A stretch of DNA of 64,000 nt, taken from a virus. Positions 6,793 to 14,780 of this stretch are shown here, piece by piece (position 1 is the first letter of the stretch; each line of letters begins with the position of its first letter). The stretch covers positions 1 to 64,000 of the IMG/VR virus record IMGVR_UViG_3300046461_000454. The stretch is one strand, 5' to 3'. The notes under the pieces were generated by a model that saw only the letters and a program-made list of their open reading frames with translations, searched no databases and was not told the DNA's origin. A program made the position numbers and the translations under genes.

Positions 6793-8073
6793 ATGGAAAT
6801 CACATTCACAGTTGACGCATCGGCTCTGAACCGGGCGATCGGGATCGCCTCAATCGTTGCCCCCCAAGTCACCCCGCAGACGGGCGGCGGATATCTCATG
6901 ATGGTCCGTCGGGACACCTGCGATGTGTACTCGCGAGATGGCAAGCACGAGGCGCGCTCGTCATTCCCGATCTTTGATGTAACTGGCGAAGGTGCCTTCA
7001 TCCTACCCTCTGAGGCCATCAAGGGGTTGGGTCATATCTCTGGGTCGATCAACTTCAAGGCCACTGAAGAGAACGGTGCTTGCAAGGTCAAGTACACGTT
7101 CGGCGAGTCGGGCTCTAATGAGCGGGTCTCGTTTGACCCACGAAGCACCCACATGTTCGAGAGGGATATCGCCGCTGCGCAGGAGTCGGTGCCTCCGAAG
7201 GAGTTCTCGATCAAGATCCTTCAGTTCGGGCTCGGGTTGGCAAAGTCTTTTTTGCCTAAGTCAGGGGACGTGCTTGACCAGGACGTTTTCAAAACGATTC
7301 GAATCTTTGGCAACGCTGACCCCGAGCTCGCACGGGCGAACGGCTACATGCTCGCGTCCAACAGCAAAGAGATCTGTTACGTGCAGTGCCCGGCCTTCAT
7401 GGACAAGGACCTGTCCTTGCCAGCCCAGCACCTGGGCTTGATCGAGTCCTTCTTGGGCCGCTCCACGGGGAACGTCTCGACGTACCAGACCGACACCAAG
7501 GTCTACATGATCAATGGGCGGGGCGACGTGCTCGGTTGGCCACGGCACACGATCGAGTACAAGAAATTCAGCTACTACGCCAAGACCGATGAGGTGGTCG
7601 TCCGGGTTGCCCGTGACCAGATCGGGTCGCAGCTCAAGTACATGCGAGACAGCTTGGCGAAGGACAAGGACAAGACCAAGACGAAGATCCGCATGCATTT
7701 TGATCCAGCTACGGGGGTCATCAGGTTATCGAGTGCGGAGGAGAGCAACACGCTGTCCTCTGACCCGGTGCCCACGGAGAAGATCGAGGTCAAGGTCTCC
7801 GAGCCTCTGGCGATGAACGTAAACGTGAACCAGATGCTGCATCTTTTTGAGGGGATTCGCGGCGACAAGGTGGAGTTCAGGATCAAGGTGATCCCTGCTG
7901 ACGAGCGCCGGCCCAAGGACCGTTTCATGTTCAGAACGATCGATGGCTTCCTGCTGAGTGAGGATGGCGTGGTCGTCGGAGGCCTAAGCGATAACCCGCC
8001 AGCAGACACGGAGTACCCACCTAAGGGGGCGTATGAATGTCGAGTGACCAGGTTCGCACCCGGGATCGATTGA
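6793..8073 (+). CDS. DNA polymerase sliding clamp (beta-clamp-like)
   Basis: This 426-residue product looks like a DnaN-type sliding clamp. It begins MEITFTVDASALNRAI, has the repeated beta-strand pattern of clamp domains (for example EGAFILPSEAIKGLG early and VEVKVSEPLAMNVNVNQMLH late), and ends in a short Arg-rich tail. Clamps ring DNA and tether polymerase and repair factors. The length is somewhat greater than the usual 360-380 residues of bacterial DnaN. A DnaX-like clamp-loader gene lies at 10962-12398, which supports the call. The next gene starts inside its last 37 bases in another frame, so it is translationally coupled to the second Rad50-like half. Similarity is fold-level and was not searched. 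Confidence 0.75.
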   Translation: MEITFTVDASALNRAIGIASIVAPQVTPQTGGGYLMMVRRDTCDVYSRDGKHEARSSFPIFDVTGEGAFILPSEAIKGLGHISGSINFKATEENGACKVKYTFGESGSNERVSFDPRSTHMFERDIAAAQESVPPKEFSIKILQFGLGLAKSFLPKSGDVLDQDVFKTIRIFGNADPELARANGYMLASNSKEICYVQCPAFMDKDLSLPAQHLGLIESFLGRSTGNVSTYQTDTKVYMINGRGDVLGWPRHTIEYKKFSYYAKTDEVVVRVARDQIGSQLKYMRDSLAKDKDKTKTKIRMHFDPATGVIRLSSAEESNTLSSDPVPTEKIEVKVSEPLAMNVNVNQMLHLFEGIRGDKVEFRIKVIPADERRPKDRFMFRTIDGFLLSEDGVVVGGLSDNPPADTEYPPKGAYECRVTRFAPGID

Positions 8074-8705
8074 TCGAAGTGCGGCAAGCGGCTGTCGCTC
8101 ACCAGACGCTTCGCCGGAGACTGCTGCAGGACAGAGAGGCCAAGAGCAAGGACGTTGGCGAGCTCACGCGTAGGCTCGATGTCCTTGCCAAGGTGAGCGA
8201 GCTGTTCCGGTCCTTGATGGACATGCTCGTCATGGCACATGTCAGGTCGATTGAAATGGTGGTCACGGAGGGCCTGAGAGCAGTCTTTGACGATCAGACG
8301 ATGGTGTTCGAGGCAGAGGTCCAGCAGCGCTACAACAAGGTGGCCATCGATTTCTACCTTCGGCAGGACCACAAGCGCGTGTCGATCAGAGCTCACCCCC
8401 TGGAGGCTTTTGGGGGTGGGCCGAGCAGTGTGGCCTCACTGATTCTGAAAGTCCTAACCATGACCCGCCTAGGAAAATGGCCGCTACTCGTGCTCGATGA
8501 GACTTTGGCGGCCGTCTCGGATGACTACATTGACCAGACCGGGGCATTCCTGAAAGGGCTGGCCGAGAAGACAGGCTTCTCTATTCTCTTGGTCACGCAC
8601 AAGCCTGCGTTCTTGGAGCACGCCAACGTTGCATATCGGGCTACCGAGCGTGTCGGTTCCGAGGGCCTCCCCCATGTGGATCTGCAGAGGTTGGGCAAGT
8701 CATGA
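8037..8705 (+). CDS. SbcC/Rad50-type ATPase, C-terminal half
   Basis: The 222-residue product has the parts missing from the ATPase gene at 3390-4628. Residues 8-60 are a short coiled coil. Then come a degenerate ABC signature AFGGGPSSVASLIL (124-137), Walker B PLLVLDET with Asp154 and Glu155, the D-loop region that follows, and an H-loop His188 in ILLVTHKPAF. There is no Walker A. A complete ATPase site therefore needs the other gene product. ATG 8037 lies within the clamp gene behind AAGGGGG, so it is translated from the same mRNA. The 37-base overlap with the clamp suggests coordinated output. It could also be a stand-alone RecF-like remnant, but the complementarity of motifs argues for a split subunit. 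Confidence 0.85.
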   Translation: MSSDQVRTRDRLIEVRQAAVAHQTLRRRLLQDREAKSKDVGELTRRLDVLAKVSELFRSLMDMLVMAHVRSIEMVVTEGLRAVFDDQTMVFEAEVQQRYNKVAIDFYLRQDHKRVSIRAHPLEAFGGGPSSVASLILKVLTMTRLGKWPLLVLDETLAAVSDDYIDQTGAFLKGLAEKTGFSILLVTHKPAFLEHANVAYRATERVGSEGLPHVDLQRLGKS

Positions 8706-9220
8706 GAACCGAGCTGGAAGTCCAAGACCGAATACGCTACCTGTTGACTCTAGAAGTTGATCGGAGGGTTGCGGAGGCTAGCGCTCGACTCCCGCACCTC
8801 TGTCGTCATAATCGCCGGCACCCCCTGGATGTCCGCAAAGAAGTCGCTGGAGAGGAAAATGAGCAGTACAACCGTATCGCGGGCAAAAGCTTGCCGGTGA
8901 TCGGGTTGTGTATGTTGGGTGCGGAGGACCCTACTTCGTGGCCGGGGACTATTTGTGAGGACCCGATCGATGCGAAGCGTTGTCCATATTTTTCCTCCGT
9001 TCTTAGCAAGGCGCTGCTAGAGGAGCAGTTCAAGGGGGAGCTCCGAGATCTTGAGTGGGTCAGCGCGAACCTACCAGAGGTCTATGGTCTCCTGTGGGCT
9101 CTTGGGTCGGAGATGGTCCCTAGGCTGCCATGGTGGAAGGCGCTTCTTTTTCGCCTACTGCAAATCCGACCCGAGCCCCTTGTTCGCGCCGCCCCGGCCC
9201 TATTACCCCCCGAGGGGTGA
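8702..9220 (+). CDS. Hypothetical protein with four spaced cysteines
   Basis: A 172-residue protein that starts with an ATGA overlap on the preceding ATPase gene. It has four cysteines, Cys34, Cys70, Cys85 and Cys94, in the contexts HLCRHN, IGLCML, GTICEDP and KRCPYF. This spacing suggests a zinc or Fe-S site. The C-terminal third is hydrophobic and Pro-rich (LPWWKALLFRLLQI), perhaps an amphipathic or membrane-touching helix. No family is assigned. Its position between recombination and primase genes suggests a role in DNA metabolism. Confidence 0.7.
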   Translation: MRTELEVQDRIRYLLTLEVDRRVAEASARLPHLCRHNRRHPLDVRKEVAGEENEQYNRIAGKSLPVIGLCMLGAEDPTSWPGTICEDPIDAKRCPYFSSVLSKALLEEQFKGELRDLEWVSANLPEVYGLLWALGSEMVPRLPWWKALLFRLLQIRPEPLVRAAPALLPPEG

Positions 9221-9222
9221 AG

Positions 9223-9756
9223 ATGCTCACCCTATTGTCTGAGATCTTCATTACAGAGAGGCATCGGCTGCGCGCCGGCCAAGTTGGGTACTCGATGCCT
9301 CTCGCTTCCGAGGTTGATGTTCAGGACCGCTCGATTGAGCCTCTCCTGATTACAACGACTCGCGGGACCTTCTTACAGAGCAGGGTGTCGAGCGCGGGCT
9401 ACGCAAGGTACGGCTTTTCGGAGTGTTCCGTGAAACAGGAAGGCACGCTTTTGCAGGAGTTCCATCGGGTGCTGCTCGACAGGACAAACGTGAACGGCTG
9501 GCGCTCTGCAGCCTCTACCGTGGGCGAGGCATTGCGCGTGATGTCGGACCACGGGGTCAAGCCCTATCACCTGGTGGGCGGGCCGTGGCTGGGGGGCGGC
9601 CCGGGTGACGTGAGGGTGTTGGATGGGGGCTTCTCCGATGGGCTCGCGCTGTTGGTGGCTGAGCCCTCCGCGGCTGGGCTCCATACCAGGGTTGGGGACT
9701 ATGTGGGCGTGCTTGCCTATCGTGTGGACCGTTGCTTTGTGGCAGTGGCCCCATGA
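9223..9756 (+). CDS. Hypothetical protein in the replication operon
   Basis: I chose ATG 9223, which follows the upstream stop by two bases and has CGAGGGGTGAAG before it; a longer form could start at 9130. The 177-residue product begins LTLLSEIFITERHRLRAGQ and contains Gly-rich stretches such as VGGPWLGGGPGDVRVLDGG. There are no recognised catalytic motifs. Its stop overlaps the primase start (ATGA), so it is probably co-translated with it. Function unknown. Confidence 0.6.
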   Translation: MLTLLSEIFITERHRLRAGQVGYSMPLASEVDVQDRSIEPLLITTTRGTFLQSRVSSAGYARYGFSECSVKQEGTLLQEFHRVLLDRTNVNGWRSAASTVGEALRVMSDHGVKPYHLVGGPWLGGGPGDVRVLDGGFSDGLALLVAEPSAAGLHTRVGDYVGVLAYRVDRCFVAVAP

Positions 9757-10442
9757 GCTGGATGGATGATTTGGTCGGCTATGCGGTCACTCGGGTTGAC
9801 GATCGGGTCCGAGACGCACTGCTTGACCGCGGAGTTTCTGACTCCCAGATGGCCCAATACGGGATTGGCTATCTGGACAACGAGTTGCCCGAGGGGGTGC
9901 CGGACGAGTTCCGTGCCTGGGCGGCGGGTAAGACCAAGGACGTCCTGCTGTTTCCGCTGACCAATGCACACGGCGAGGTCAAAGGGTTCCAGGTTCGCAA
10001 TGTCGAGCGGGGGAAGTCTGGGTATTCGGACTATCTGCCTGATCTGCATGAGGCTTGTCTATTTGGGCTTGGTCAGGCGGCCAAACCCATGAGCGAGACG
10101 CGTTCAGCGTTCATCGTTGAAGGCGCCTTCGATCTATTTCCGATCCAACGGGCCTTTGCCCCTGTGGTGGCCACGCTGACAGCTCGGGCCAACCCCAGGT
10201 TCGCGAGGCTGCTCAAACGAGTCGTTGACCGCGTTTGGGTTGGGTATGACATGGATGCGGCGGGTCGCCGTGGTTGTGCGGGCTTCGCGCGAGATCACGG
10301 CGGTGAGCTCGAGGTGTATATCGTGTCGTATCCAACACCCGGCAGCGTCAAGGACCCGGGAGACTTGTGGGAAGCATGGGGCGACTCGCGATTCATCCCG
10401 TTCATCCAAGAGCTGACCAGAGCTAAAGACCCCCTCGGGTGA
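9753..10442 (+). CDS. DnaG-type TOPRIM primase core
   Basis: The 229-residue protein (ATG 9753, overlapping the upstream TGA) matches the RNA-polymerase core of DnaG primases. Residues 34-110 resemble the N-terminal subdomain (YGIGYLDNELP, then VLLFPLTNAHGEVKGFQVRN, then CLFGLGQA). The TOPRIM motifs follow: Glu123 in AFIVEGAFD and Asp166-x-Asp168 in VGYDMDAAG. KDPGDLWEAWG is also typical. It lacks the N-terminal zinc-binding domain and any C-terminal helicase or helicase-binding domain, so it is a minimal primase. The zinc domain or helicase may be encoded elsewhere. It would make RNA primers at the phage fork. Confidence 0.85.
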   Translation: MSWMDDLVGYAVTRVDDRVRDALLDRGVSDSQMAQYGIGYLDNELPEGVPDEFRAWAAGKTKDVLLFPLTNAHGEVKGFQVRNVERGKSGYSDYLPDLHEACLFGLGQAAKPMSETRSAFIVEGAFDLFPIQRAFAPVVATLTARANPRFARLLKRVVDRVWVGYDMDAAGRRGCAGFARDHGGELEVYIVSYPTPGSVKDPGDLWEAWGDSRFIPFIQELTRAKDPLG

Positions 10443-10458
10443 AACTAGGAGACTCCAG

Positions 10459-10944
10459 ATGGCTAGAGAATACGGCCCAGCAGAAACGGTAGAAGAGATT
10501 GCGCTTCGTTTGATCCCAACCTATCACCCGGAGCTCGCGACAGCGCGCATTGTCTACATCTTCGTGGACAAGGCCGGTAAGAAGGCGGGGCGGGCGGTGC
10601 TCGGTAAGGCCCGCAAGATATCAGGGGCACTCGAGTTCCTATTGGAGCGGGACTTCTTGCTGGAGGTTGCGCTGGATGGCTGGAACGAGCTCTCCGAGCG
10701 GCAGCGTAATGCGCTCGTAGACCACCTACTCGAATCGTGCACCGGCGTCGAGGATGAGAAGAGTGGCGCAATGAAGTGGGTGATGCGTGAGGCAGACGTC
10801 AAGGAATTCACGTCGATCCTCAACCGGCATGGCGCATGGACGGACGAGCTCTCTGGCATGGTTGAAGTCGCGCAGCGCTTGAACCTTGAGGCTCGCGCAC
10901 AGGAGGTAGTGGAGACGATTGCGCAGACACAGATCCAAGCCTAG
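10459..10944 (+). CDS. Phage metallopeptidase-family protein with degenerate active site
   Basis: The 161-residue protein matches, from memory, the putative phage metallopeptidase family: TYHPELATARIVYIFVDKAG, GKARKIS, FLLEV, then W-NELSERQRNALVDHLLESC. In the family the last stretch is normally of the DHELCHC type, a zinc HExxH-like site. Here His89 is kept, but the expected Glu is Leu90 and the second His is Ser93. The downstream READVKEFTSILNRHG is retained. Protease activity is therefore doubtful, and a binding or regulatory role is more likely. It sits between primase and clamp-loader genes. The family name is recalled and should be checked. Confidence 0.65.
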   Translation: MAREYGPAETVEEIALRLIPTYHPELATARIVYIFVDKAGKKAGRAVLGKARKISGALEFLLERDFLLEVALDGWNELSERQRNALVDHLLESCTGVEDEKSGAMKWVMREADVKEFTSILNRHGAWTDELSGMVEVAQRLNLEARAQEVVETIAQTQIQA

Positions 10945-10961: not shown

Positions 10962-12398
10962 GTGTGGGATATTTTGTATCGGCCACGCAAGTATTCGGAC
11001 GTTCTGGGTCAGGCCGGCAGTGTCCGGCTTCTCAAAACTCGGATCAGTAGGGGTACGGCGTTTGAGACTAGCTACATCTTCGCGGGTGGGTACGGCCAGG
11101 GAAAAACGACCCTGAGCCGTATCCACGCGATGGCGATGATTTGCCAGGATTTGGACAAGGCCGACCCCGAGCCGTGCGGGGCATGCGACAGCTGCAAAGC
11201 TATCCTGCAAGAGCAGTCTGAGGCGTTCACTGAGCGCGACGCCGCAAGCAGCGGATCAACGGACAGCATGCGGAGCTTGGTCGAGGAGCTCCCGTACATG
11301 CTCCCAAACGCCCCGAAGCGGATCTATCTGATCGACGAGTGCCAGCGTATGCACCACGCGGCTCAAGATGTGCTGTTGAAGCCCATCGAAGAAAAGAAGA
11401 TGGTCGCAATGCTCTGCACCACGGAGGCGGAAAAGATCCGTGGTGCGATACGCTCAAGATGTGAGGAGTACACGATCAAGAAGGTGACGCGGGACGACGT
11501 GTTGCCCCGCATGAAGATGGTGCTCAACGAGCAGGGGGTCCAGCACGAGGATGACGCTGTCTTGATCATCATCGATCGGGCCGGGGGGCACGTCCGCAAC
11601 GTGCTCAACAATCTCGAGATGATGGCGCAGCTCGGGCCGATCACCGTAGCAAGTGTCAGAGAGTATCTGAATCTCTCTGTGGTAACCCTGTACTATCAGA
11701 TCCTCCTGAGCCTCGACAACCCGCTCAAGGCCATCGATTTGGTTCGTCAAGCGTGCGAGGCGACGCCCGCAGATGAGGTTGCAGCCGGTCTGGCTGAAGC
11801 AGCCATGAACACCTATCGGATGGCTCATGGCTGGTATGCCGATCTCGCCTACGTCGACAAGACCTTAGCCGAGCAGGTCTACGATAAGTATCAGGACCAC
11901 GTGGTCAGATTCGCCAAGTGGTTTTTGGGGCATCGCAGTGTTACCCGTCTAGCTCTAGAGCTAGACGTTCTGGCTTTCTCTCAGAACGCTAGGAGCTTGC
12001 CCCCGGAGATGGCACCGCCGCCAGTGGTGTTCGCTAGTCAGGTACCTCAAATTGCAGTGGCGCCGCCGCCGTCGCAAGAGACCGTTCCAGAGCGAGCTCC
12101 TGTCGAGTCTTTGCCCCCGGTCGCGCCGAGCTCGCCCCGTAAAAGTACAGGTTCTGGAGCAATGCCGATTGCACCTGTAGGCGCAGAGTTTGGGCTTGGC
12201 TTTCCAGACCCGACGCCCAATTCGGCCATGGAGAAGACGGTATCTGAGCAACAGGCGCCCCGTTCACGCGCCAATCAGGCGCCAGCGCCGGCTCAGTCCA
12301 AGCCACGGGGTAATCACCAGCTCCTGGAGCCAGCCGAGTGGCGAGGAGAGTTAATGCGGTTATATCGAAAAAGAACAGTTTGGAATCCAGATTCTTAG
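10962..12398 (+). CDS. DnaX-like clamp-loader subunit (gamma/tau)
   Basis: The start is GTG 10962, giving MWDILYRPRKYSDVLGQ, the usual DnaX opening. Seen: Walker A GYGQGKTT (43-50); four cysteines Cys61, Cys72, Cys75, Cys78 forming the DnaX zinc module; Walker B region LIDECQRMH; sensor 1 CTTEAEK; and the SRC motif SRCEEY carrying the arginine finger. Clamp loaders open the sliding clamp onto primed DNA. The remaining C-terminal part (from about residue 345) is a Pro/Ala/Ser-rich linker ending in a basic segment. This resembles tau-type tails that bind polymerase or helicase. No delta or delta-prime genes are in the window. It may load the clamp encoded at 6793-8073. Confidence 0.92.
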   Translation: MWDILYRPRKYSDVLGQAGSVRLLKTRISRGTAFETSYIFAGGYGQGKTTLSRIHAMAMICQDLDKADPEPCGACDSCKAILQEQSEAFTERDAASSGSTDSMRSLVEELPYMLPNAPKRIYLIDECQRMHHAAQDVLLKPIEEKKMVAMLCTTEAEKIRGAIRSRCEEYTIKKVTRDDVLPRMKMVLNEQGVQHEDDAVLIIIDRAGGHVRNVLNNLEMMAQLGPITVASVREYLNLSVVTLYYQILLSLDNPLKAIDLVRQACEATPADEVAAGLAEAAMNTYRMAHGWYADLAYVDKTLAEQVYDKYQDHVVRFAKWFLGHRSVTRLALELDVLAFSQNARSLPPEMAPPPVVFASQVPQIAVAPPPSQETVPERAPVESLPPVAPSSPRKSTGSGAMPIAPVGAEFGLGFPDPTPNSAMEKTVSEQQAPRSRANQAPAPAQSKPRGNHQLLEPAEWRGELMRLYRKRTVWNPDS

Positions 12399-12425: not shown

Positions 12426-14132
12426 ATGAGTTGTGACATTCAATGGGTGGTCCTTGAACTTACCTCCAAGGCAGAGGGTGCGGACCCGGCAGCAATCGCA
12501 GCCTCGATTCGACACCACATCAGGGATGCTGAGGTTTTCATACCCGCCTCGGTGGTCGAACGCGGACCCATCCGGGAGTTTAAGTATCTGGTAGACGGCT
12601 ACGCGTTCGTTCGCCATAGACATCCGGACCACTGCTATCTGCGGCTAGAAGAAACGAAGTACGTTCAGGCGCCGCTCTATCATGTGACGGGCAATCGGCG
12701 AGAGAAGAAGCTGGCGACGGTCACCAACGGCCAGATCGAGACTCTGCGAGCTCAGATCACGGTCGAGGTGGACCAAGGCATCGAGGTGGGCGATGCGGTG
12801 ACGATCATCTCCGGCCCCTACAAGAATATCAAGGCGACCGTTCGTGAGGAGATCCTCGAGCAAGACTCGGTTGTGGTGCACATCCACCTGAGGTCGACCG
12901 ATCGACTAGTTACGCTGCCAAGAGCTTTCCTTCGGCTGGAGTGTAAGTCGCCGGATACGGCGTATCGGGAACGGGTCCGGCGCATAGGGGCTTGGGTTGA
13001 GTCGGTTCGCAAGGTTTCCCAGTGGCCGGCTAATAAGCTGGACGGGCTGAAGGAGCGGGCGGAGACCGTCTACCGCCTAGATGGCTGGGTTGACCGGAGC
13101 GTGTCTCTGTACCGCTGGTTCAACGCTTTCTACTCGGTACTAGACCTCTCGCTCCTTGTGGAAAAGTCGCGCGCCCTTGGGACCCTGGAGGCGCTGTCAC
13201 ATCGGCTGAACTCGGAACCGGTTACACCTATGGAACAACAAAGCTCGGGATTAAATGTGGTCATTGACGGGACCCAACTGTTCATCCGGTGCTCCGAGGC
13301 GCCGGGGCTCTCGGGTCTGACTGATAGTCAGGGGCAACGCACTGGAGGGGTCGTCGGGTTTCTGCGCAGTGTGGCTGCGTACCGCAAGCGATTTCCTCGG
13401 TGTTCTATCTATATTTGTTGGGATGGTAGCTCTCAACGTCGAAAAGCGATGTTTGTGGGGTACAAGGGTAACCGGATCCCACGGTCCGAGACGCCCTCCT
13501 TTGGCTGGGCTTGGTTACGCGAGGTTCTGCCAATGCTGGGTGTGCATCAAGCCTTCAATGCTGAAGAGGAGGCTGACGACGTGATGGCCGCTCTTGTGCG
13601 AGGCCCGCTTAGTGGTGCGACTAACTTGATCATCACCTCTGATCGAGACCTACTTCAGGTGGTCAACGACTTCACGCATCAGCTGTGCCCGGCCATGGGC
13701 GGCGGCAAAGAGAAGTTGTACGATCCCGCTGCCGTCGAGGCTGAGTATGGGGTCCCGCCGCGCTCGATGGTCCAGCTACGCGCGATCAGTGGGGACACTT
13801 CTGACCATATCCCTGGTGCGCCGGGCTTTGGCTTGAAGACGGCCGCGAAGGCGTTGAAGCCGTACGGAACGGTTAGCAGTCTCTTCAAGTCAAATCTCGC
13901 CGGCTTGAGCAAGACGCAAGCCGTGAGCCTTCGGGCTAGTGAGAAGCAGGTGTTGCTGAACGTAGAGCTCATGTCTCTATGCGACGTCCCATTCAGCCAA
14001 ATCAAACCAAACAAAGATCAAGAGGCCGCCCGCGCACGGATCAAGGCGCTGAACATTCGTCCGGACCCAATCTTGACGGCGTTTTTCGAGGCGTCACGAC
14101 GCACCGAAGCCGTGTCCGACGTGGGCATGTGA
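12426..14132 (+). CDS. NusG-like domain fused to FEN-type 5'-3' exonuclease
   Basis: One uninterrupted 568-residue frame holds two parts. Residues 1-170 look like NusG/RfaH: an NGN domain (WVVLELTSK, then EVFIPASVVERG, then LVDGYAFVRH) and a KOW domain (VGDAVTIISGPYKNIKATV, 121-139). Residues 171-270 are a helical linker. Residues 276-550 are a flap endonuclease: Asp281 in VVIDGTQL, Asp333 in ICWDGS, the EEEADD cluster (380-385), Asp406/Asp408 in TSDRDLL, and Asp457/Asp460 in GDTSDHIPGAPGFGLKT with its helix-three-turn-helix. FEN removes RNA primers and flaps; NusG binds elongating RNA polymerase. An internal ATG at 13230 precedes the FEN part but lacks a clear ribosome site. Confidence 0.85.
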   Translation: MSCDIQWVVLELTSKAEGADPAAIAASIRHHIRDAEVFIPASVVERGPIREFKYLVDGYAFVRHRHPDHCYLRLEETKYVQAPLYHVTGNRREKKLATVTNGQIETLRAQITVEVDQGIEVGDAVTIISGPYKNIKATVREEILEQDSVVVHIHLRSTDRLVTLPRAFLRLECKSPDTAYRERVRRIGAWVESVRKVSQWPANKLDGLKERAETVYRLDGWVDRSVSLYRWFNAFYSVLDLSLLVEKSRALGTLEALSHRLNSEPVTPMEQQSSGLNVVIDGTQLFIRCSEAPGLSGLTDSQGQRTGGVVGFLRSVAAYRKRFPRCSIYICWDGSSQRRKAMFVGYKGNRIPRSETPSFGWAWLREVLPMLGVHQAFNAEEEADDVMAALVRGPLSGATNLIITSDRDLLQVVNDFTHQLCPAMGGGKEKLYDPAAVEAEYGVPPRSMVQLRAISGDTSDHIPGAPGFGLKTAAKALKPYGTVSSLFKSNLAGLSKTQAVSLRASEKQVLLNVELMSLCDVPFSQIKPNKDQEAARARIKALNIRPDPILTAFFEASRRTEAVSDVGM

Positions 14133-14153: not shown

Positions 14154-14780
14154 ATGTCCAACGGTTATGTGATCCCTGTCGACCCCGCCGAGTTGGCCAA
14201 TCGCTTCGCGGCTCCCGCGGTGCTCTTAGATGACGAGGCGCCGCCCGAGTCGGAGGATGTCTCCGCGTTGTTCTCTAGCGGCGACTATGAGACAAGGATC
14301 GCTCCGCTGTTGGACCGGATCCCTGAGCGCGAAGCCGATTTGATCTACCTGTACTATGTGTGCAAGAAGCGGCAAGCGGACATCGCTGAGATTTTTGATG
14401 TGACGCAAGCGGCGATTAGCTACCGCCTAGACAGGGGGATCCAGCGGCTGAAGTTCTTGCTGGCCATCCCCGCTGTCACGGAAGAGGAGCTGCGCGAAGA
14501 CCTCTGCGAGCTGTTCGAGCAGATCGACGTCGATATCCTGGTCGGCATGTGGCAGACCACCTGTCAGTCGGAGGTTGCCAACAGCCTCCAGCTAACCCAG
14601 GGGCGCGTCCGGCACCGCTTCTTCAAGGCGGTCAGTAAGCTCAAGATCGCGGCGGCGCACAACGAGCTCTTTCGGCCGTACGAAAAGATCTTCACCTCGA
14701 TCTCATCAAAGAAGTTCAACATCCTACGCGCCGTGAGTCTTCCGCAGTGGAGCAATCGCGGCCTCGACCGCTGTCTGTAG
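14154..14780 (+). CDS. Sigma-70 region-4-like protein with two helix-turn-helix units
   Basis: The 208-residue protein starts at ATG 14154 behind TTTGAGGAGG. Residues about 55-100 (LLDRIPEREADLIYLYYV, then RQADIAEIFDVTQAAISYRL) fit sigma region 4, with the recognition helix near TQAAISYRL. A second unit follows at about 125-165 (VDILVGMWQTTCQSEVANS, then LTQGRVRHRFFKAVSKLK), apparently a diverged duplicate. No convincing region 2 is visible, so it is not a complete sigma factor. It may direct host RNA polymerase to phage late promoters or act as a transcription switch. It is the last gene before the structural region. Confidence 0.75.
   Translation: MSNGYVIPVDPAELANRFAAPAVLLDDEAPPESEDVSALFSSGDYETRIAPLLDRIPEREADLIYLYYVCKKRQADIAEIFDVTQAAISYRLDRGIQRLKFLLAIPAVTEEELREDLCELFEQIDVDILVGMWQTTCQSEVANSLQLTQGRVRHRFFKAVSKLKIAAAHNELFRPYEKIFTSISSKKFNILRAVSLPQWSNRGLDRCL

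Follow-up and report, generated by a model that had tools for sequence, protein, structure and literature searches.

A phage NusG-like transcription factor joined in one reading frame to a flap endonuclease, with a conserved inner start codon

The DNA analysed here, hereafter the window, is a stretch of 64,000 nucleotides (positions 1 to 64,000) of the IMG/VR virus record IMGVR_UViG_3300046461_000454, which comprises 174,646 bases in all. An uninterrupted frame of 568 codons lies on its plus strand at 12426-14132 and occurs only once in the record; NGN-KOW and FEN are the only domains that hmmscan assigns to its product, and no polymerase domain is found. An earlier note had read this frame as a NusG-like NGN-KOW pair followed by a FEN-type 5'-3' exonuclease, and sequence profiles, AlphaFold models and Foldseek searches all bear this assignment out, with the coordinates and residue ranges given at that time correct to within a few residues. 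The gene, its parts and its nearest neighbours are as follows.

6793..8073, plus strand: putative sliding clamp (weak match to phrog_947, DNA polymerase processivity factor, at 5e-6 and confined to residues 1-96; nothing in Pfam)
9732..10442, plus strand: TOPRIM primase-like protein (PF13155, 1e-6; phrog_47, 7e-19)
10459..10944, plus strand: phage metallopeptidase (PF18894, 2e-26), syntenic in relatives
10962..12398, plus strand: clamp loader (DnaX-like), directly upstream of the fusion gene (phrog_5846, 6e-47; PF13177, 2e-25), syntenic
12426..14132, plus strand: NusG-FEN fusion ORF, 568 aa, one open frame that is kept in 30 non-redundant proteins
12426..12773, plus strand: NGN domain, residues 1-116 (AlphaFold2 pLDDT 91; Foldseek matches to NusG/RfaH; profile against PDB NusG, 7e-10)
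12783..12944, plus strand: KOW domain, predicted five-stranded barrel, residues ~120-173 (KOW match 0.0015; strands at 124-173 in the models)
12951..13211, plus strand: helical linker, residues 176-262 (AlphaFold2 helices 176-198, 202-235 and 242-262, at modest pLDDT)
13214..13222, plus strand: weak Shine-Dalgarno-like stretch ggaaccggt (dG -4.1; background mean about -2.9)
13230..13232, plus strand: in-frame inner ATG (Met269), at which a 300-aa free FEN putatively begins (codon conservation)
13254..14087, plus strand: FEN / 5'-3' exonuclease, residues 277-554 (PF02739/PF01367, alignment with Taq Pol I, invariant columns, Foldseek)
14154..14780, plus strand: sigma-70 region 4 protein, directly downstream of the fusion gene (PF04545, 3e-15; two region-4 stretches), syntenic

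The order clamp loader, NusG(-FEN), sigma-region-4 protein and late genes is fixed across the lineage that carries the fusion. Also upstream of the fusion gene in the window are genes for RuvC-like, RecA/UvsX, SbcC/SbcD-like and PD-(D/E)XK nuclease proteins, and the terminase large subunit gene lies downstream of it. The PF18894 metallopeptidase-like gene sits between the primase and clamp loader genes both in this lineage and in a NusG-only lineage described below. The product of 14154-14780 matches sigma-70 region 4 twice and has no region 2 match, and it may be a coactivator or a partial sigma instead of a full sigma factor. Two sister phages, L036 (12490-12813) and L039 (12687-12959), carry a second short sigma-region-4-like ORF after the first, a possible duplication or split gene. 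Intein-like inserts were seen at two sites in the DnaX genes of four relatives, L030 (gene at 7227-9965), L043 (7225-9999), L045 (7278-9992) and L062 (8167-10053): those of L030, L043 and L045 fall in the P-loop (GRGK/GQGK, with C...HN and TT) and have room for a homing endonuclease, and that of L062 is short and lies past LYLFDE (C...SN, CH).

When the NusG half is searched as a single sequence, its NusG-type matches all remain below curated cut-offs (TIGR00922 nusG, 1e-7; phrog_6386 'transcription antiterminator', 1e-6; KOW, 0.0015), and the best PDB match of the first 270 residues is T. maritima NusG at 4e-4. A 46-member profile matches T. maritima NusG (2lq8) at 7e-10, the other strong PDB matches being NusG/Spt5 chains, and W7, L12, P40, G58, Y59 and F61 are invariant in 46/46 aligned NusG-like sequences. 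Residues 1-184 were modelled by AlphaFold2 from the window and locus proteins only, with a mean pLDDT of 91. The top PDB matches of this model by Foldseek are NusG chains of antitermination complexes (lambda N and rrn), Aquifex/Thermotoga NusG, RfaH and Spt5 (NusG 6gov_G and 9a56_B and RfaH 8phk among them), so that the structural match of residues 1-170 to NGN/KOW domains, on which the earlier reading hinged, was indeed found. The TM-scores across NGN and KOW together are ~0.4, which we attribute to a different relative placement of the two domains in the model; KOW alone superposes on the M. tuberculosis NusG CTD with a TMt of 0.79 and an rmsd of 1.1 A. The curated scores of the named subfamilies are not reached (29.8 versus 135.7 bits for the NusG equivalog, 22.5 versus 125 for LoaP and 22.1 versus 100 for UpxY), and the NGN-KOW module is best classified from these profiles as a divergent NusG/Spt5 family member that stands outside the NusG equivalog, LoaP and UpxY groups. 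With bacterial NusG, RfaH, LoaP and UpxY it shares the order NGN then KOW, the fold and the W..P..GYxF motif; unlike them, it is phage-encoded, falls below the curated subfamily cut-offs, and continues into a long linker of helices followed by a complete nuclease. The module is single-copy in 16/16 records tested, no second NusG-type module being found in them.

In the second half, hmmscan places PF02739 at residues 278-442 (E=5e-23; 82 bits versus a curated cut-off of 34.3) and PF01367 at residues 443-523 (E=6e-14; 52.7 bits versus a cut-off of 40). The best PDB sequence match is Taq Pol I (alignment E=1e-24), whose metal-binding carboxylates we take to be D18, D67, E117, D119, D120, D142, D144, D188 and D191. 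The nine residues aligned with these, D281, D333, E382, D384, D385, D406, D408, D457 and D460, are invariant in 24 fused proteins, and the FEN that had been called complete thus has all of its metal-ligand carboxylates in place. Structure prediction puts the FEN at 277-554, with M. smegmatis FEN (6c35, 7e-18) as the best fold match by Foldseek and Taq and M. smegmatis Pol I, ExoIX and T5 D15 as further matches. Both Pfam FEN domains and the nine carboxylates are shared with the Pol I 5'-nuclease domain, M. smegmatis FEN, ExoIX and T5 D15. It is a FEN of the Pol I repair/replication type, complete as judged by its residues, and a predicted nuclease; FENs strip 5' flaps and RNA primers. Unlike in Pol I, however, this FEN is joined to NusG and not to a polymerase, and the phages encode their Pol I-type polymerase at a different place (DNA_pol_A, in a separate ORF at 142822-143988 of the record, and in a different ORF in 11/11 fusion-lineage records tested). 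We also considered reading the conserved C-terminal I-L-x-x-F-F motif as a PIP-box, a clamp-binding element, but dropped this as evidence, since the corresponding position in Taq Pol I presumably holds the helix that ordinarily ends the FEN domain.

The two halves are also recognized in a single model of the full-length protein (pLDDT 81, pTM 0.52), which comprises the NGN domain, KOW (124-173), three helices (176-262) and the FEN (277-554), and for which Foldseek against the PDB returns FEN-type matches and, separately, NusG 6gov_G (8e-10); the low pTM means that the model leaves the mutual placement of the NusG and FEN halves unpredicted. Between relatives, the linker differs in both length and sequence. 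Close pairs gave dN/dS values of 0.03-0.08 (NGN-KOW), 0.08-0.20 (linker) and 0.05-0.11 (FEN); these ratios are rough, as several dS values are ~1 or higher, and two more pairs showed saturation in one or more of the parts. The linker value is in the range of purifying selection, and because of it we read the linker as translated and constrained, though loosely.

Scans of IMG/VR for phage proteins holding NGN/KOW and FEN in one chain retrieved the identical fused-ORF layout from many phage contigs, the carriers being a group of large uncultivated phages. After removal of near-copies, there are 30 fused proteins non-redundant at 95%, of 557-679 aa, whose identity to the window protein falls to 38%. 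Since the sources are metagenomic contigs only, an assembly or frame artefact has to be considered; many independent assemblies from different samples nevertheless agree, and we give such an artefact practically no weight. Chance read-through, against which the earlier note had also argued, and assembly error are ruled out by these independent assemblies, by the same frame in the 30 conserved proteins and by the dN/dS of the linker.

The earlier note knew of no described phage NusG-FEN fusion, and this holds in the sources that we searched. Among GenBank phages, no record matches 80% of the protein at a single place; in BFVD, viral FENs and viral NusG-like proteins occur separately, with none bridging both halves among the 50 matches listed; and a scan of 84,980 cellular genomes with two patterns gave Pol I-type FEN matches only. 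The open-access literature searched holds no description of a NusG-FEN fusion or of a dual-start design, and NusG is unmentioned in a paper on moraphages (PMC12619734) and in an overview of jumbo phages (PMC7824862). The families of both halves are known; these sources describe neither the joining of the two, nor how deep it reaches in the phylogeny, nor the dual-start design considered next.

An in-frame start codon lies just 5' of the FEN core in 31/31 fused genes. In the subclade of the window it is ATG in 9/9 members, and in subclade B (n=22) it falls at one alignment column in 20 genes (14 ATG, 4 GTG and 2 TTG), the remaining two having GTG one or two codons off and the neighbouring columns scoring 0-3 of 22. 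The inner start of subclade B is preceded by a strong Shine-Dalgarno sequence, with a mean dG of -5.8 kcal/mol versus -1.4 (SD 0.48) for a null made by the same best-of-window procedure elsewhere in the same genes, the candidate being the best of a nine-codon window; 0 of 20,000 resamples were as low, a P value that overstates independence, given the kinship of the members and the inclusion of a few near-copies. This mean is about equal to that of control gene starts (-5.3, n=87), and the start of the fusion itself is weaker (-2.5). In the subclade of the window the Shine-Dalgarno sequence of the inner start is weak (mean -3.4, P 0.01), with -4.1 in the window and none in L002. One relative, L039, has a separate FEN gene whose true start falls at this same column and carries a Shine-Dalgarno sequence. 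Descent from an ancestral separate gene could explain the position of the inner start as a relic, but not the lasting strength of its Shine-Dalgarno sequence in a fast-changing linker.

Because the start codon is present in every relative and the Shine-Dalgarno sequence is strong in one subclade, we consider that the fusion gene probably makes free FEN as well as NusG-FEN, two products being likely for subclade B and a possibility for the window. Such an arrangement has precedents, as gene 4 of T7 yields the full gp4A and, from an inner start, the short C-terminal gp4B. In Salmonella, SpaO is likewise made as a full and a short C-terminal product by means of an inner start (PMC13059759). The likeness lies in an in-frame inner start that gives the C-terminal domain alone, which for the fusion is predicted from the conservation of the codon and of the Shine-Dalgarno sequence.

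A more radical reading is that the FEN is made from the inner ATG only, the upstream part being a decayed or separately processed NusG. The conserved inner start codon, its Shine-Dalgarno sequence in subclade B and the often weaker Shine-Dalgarno sequence at the fusion's own start would all suit it. We nevertheless think it very unlikely, as decay is at odds with the low dN/dS of NGN-KOW and the constraint on the linker, no stop separates the two parts in 30 proteins, and no other copy of NGN-KOW was found in 16 records; with no intervening stop and no second NGN-KOW, any translation of NusG must yield the fusion. Of the possibility raised earlier, that ATG 13230 is the sole start of the FEN, one part therefore stands, namely a start codon kept in all fused relatives, but exclusive use of it does not fit with an NGN-KOW module and linker that are both constrained.

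The distribution of the FEN gives the fusion a clear evolutionary setting. Each of 20 fusion-lineage records (19 fused, 1 split) yields a single PF02739 match, so that in the 19 fused records the fused FEN is the sole FEN found, and 20 NusG-only records yield none. Profiles and models together identify the protein as a phage NusG paralogue fused to the only detectable flap endonuclease of its phage. The NusG-only records belong to a more distant sister lineage with a stand-alone NusG at the same operon place, between the same clamp-loader and sigma neighbours; they comprise L052-L081 and L008, reach up to 485 kb, and yielded no FEN or RNase H1 in the records tested. In a tree of DnaX and sigma, the fused/unfused trait needs one change and L039 is sister to a fused form, although the direction (FEN gain or loss) depends on the root and three intein-bearing DnaX rows form a long branch. 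In L039 (9983-11871) the single frame is replaced by two genes that overlap by ATGA: one codes for NusG together with the linker (320 aa), the other for the FEN (309 aa); this split could stem from a sequencing indel. Given the single trait change and the place of L039, the fusion is old and the split secondary, unless there is such an indel in L039.

As for the partners of the two halves, RNAP beta (PF00562) was found in 0/22 records, though divergent phage RNAPs could escape detection, and Pol III alpha and RNase H1 were likewise each found in 0/22; a beta clamp (PF00712) gave no match above cut-off in these 22 records. These absences are provisional, since many of the records are probably partial. 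On this basis we set aside a phage RNA polymerase as the NusG partner, no canonical RNAP beta being detected in the 22 records, and a Pol III-type replicase, for which there was no match in them.

NGN domains contact the clamp helices and gate loop of RNAP (PMC7819879), and for this reason the fusion should ride on RNAP, with the host enzyme as the expected partner in view of the lack of a detected canonical phage RNAP beta. The best explanation, in our view, is a NusG-FEN tethered to RNAP that couples replication and transcription, together with free FEN for primer removal; we infer the tethering and hold the whole to be about evenly poised. The NGN domain would dock on host RNA polymerase and keep it processive on phage DNA, and the linker would give the FEN access to the transcription bubble or to an oncoming fork. 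There, the tethered FEN would remove 5'-ended RNA/DNA flaps and hybrid RNA, as in R-loops, primer transcripts and lagging-strand primers, and this flap and primer processing at RNAP would couple replication and transcription of one template. The free FEN from the inner start would carry out routine removal of primers alongside the Pol I-type polymerase that the phage encodes in another ORF. A role of the fusion in R-loops or transcription-replication encounters, as proposed in the earlier note, is plausible.

Three observations count against parts of this scheme. The Shine-Dalgarno sequence of the inner start is weak in the subclade of the window; L039 does without the covalent link (unless an indel is responsible), which would then not be strictly required there; and no FEN at all is seen in the NusG-only phages, whose syntenic setting is the same, so that coupling is not essential to the operon. 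The strongest rival is one of co-expression only, in which an ordinary NusG factor and an ordinary primer-removal FEN are joined for linked amounts, with no action at RNAP. It agrees with the presence of NusG and FEN within one operon, with a variable linker, with an inner start that would furnish free FEN and with L039, which manages unfused. On the other hand, coupling through an ATGA overlap of the L039 type would be enough for linked amounts, yet the frame is retained in 30 divergent proteins whose linkers are unequal in length and still under purifying selection. We regard co-expression only as a real but lesser possibility.

It can also be asked whether the fusion attacks the host, cutting host transcribed DNA or nascent RNA from host RNAP in a torpedo-like shut-off. 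Host RNAP would be used here too, as no phage RNAP beta was detected, and a cellular precedent for a guided 5'-3' nuclease exists in the stimulation of Xrn2 by Spt5 (PMC11695829). But the neighbours are replication, recombination and sigma genes and not early takeover genes, and the FEN, the sole one found in fusion-lineage records, belongs to the Pol I repair/replication type, all of which makes host attack improbable. The Spt5-Xrn2 pair resembles the fusion in bringing together a NusG-family elongation factor and a 5'-3' nuclease, and differs from it in being two separate proteins that act in RNA termination with eukaryotic Pol II (PMC11695829).

Returning to the coupling of replication and transcription, a comparison with phage T4 is instructive. 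There, late transcription is switched on by the sliding clamp gp45 acting with gp55 and gp33 (PMC2988020, PMC7892883). A putative sliding clamp, a clamp loader and a sigma-like factor are likewise encoded here, clustered directly before late-type genes. The resemblance is one of gene content; the T4 activator is without NusG or FEN, and coupling in the present phages is suggested by gene order and the fusion alone.

Taken together, these features may define a new class of transcription-coupled nuclease, in which a NusG-type factor would carry a FEN on host RNAP and an inner start would supply free FEN; we place this somewhat short of an even chance. To our knowledge, transcription-replication conflicts and R-loops are met in known cells by separate factors that are recruited ad hoc. 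If the proposal is true, evolution has wired an RNAP rider directly to a replication nuclease, and one purifiable protein would be available for testing. The inner start would offer a natural comparison of fused and free FEN, and ready evolutionary controls exist in L039, where the frame is split, and in the sister lineage with NusG alone. The layout of the fusion suggests a direct physical link between the reading of the phage genome and its copying.
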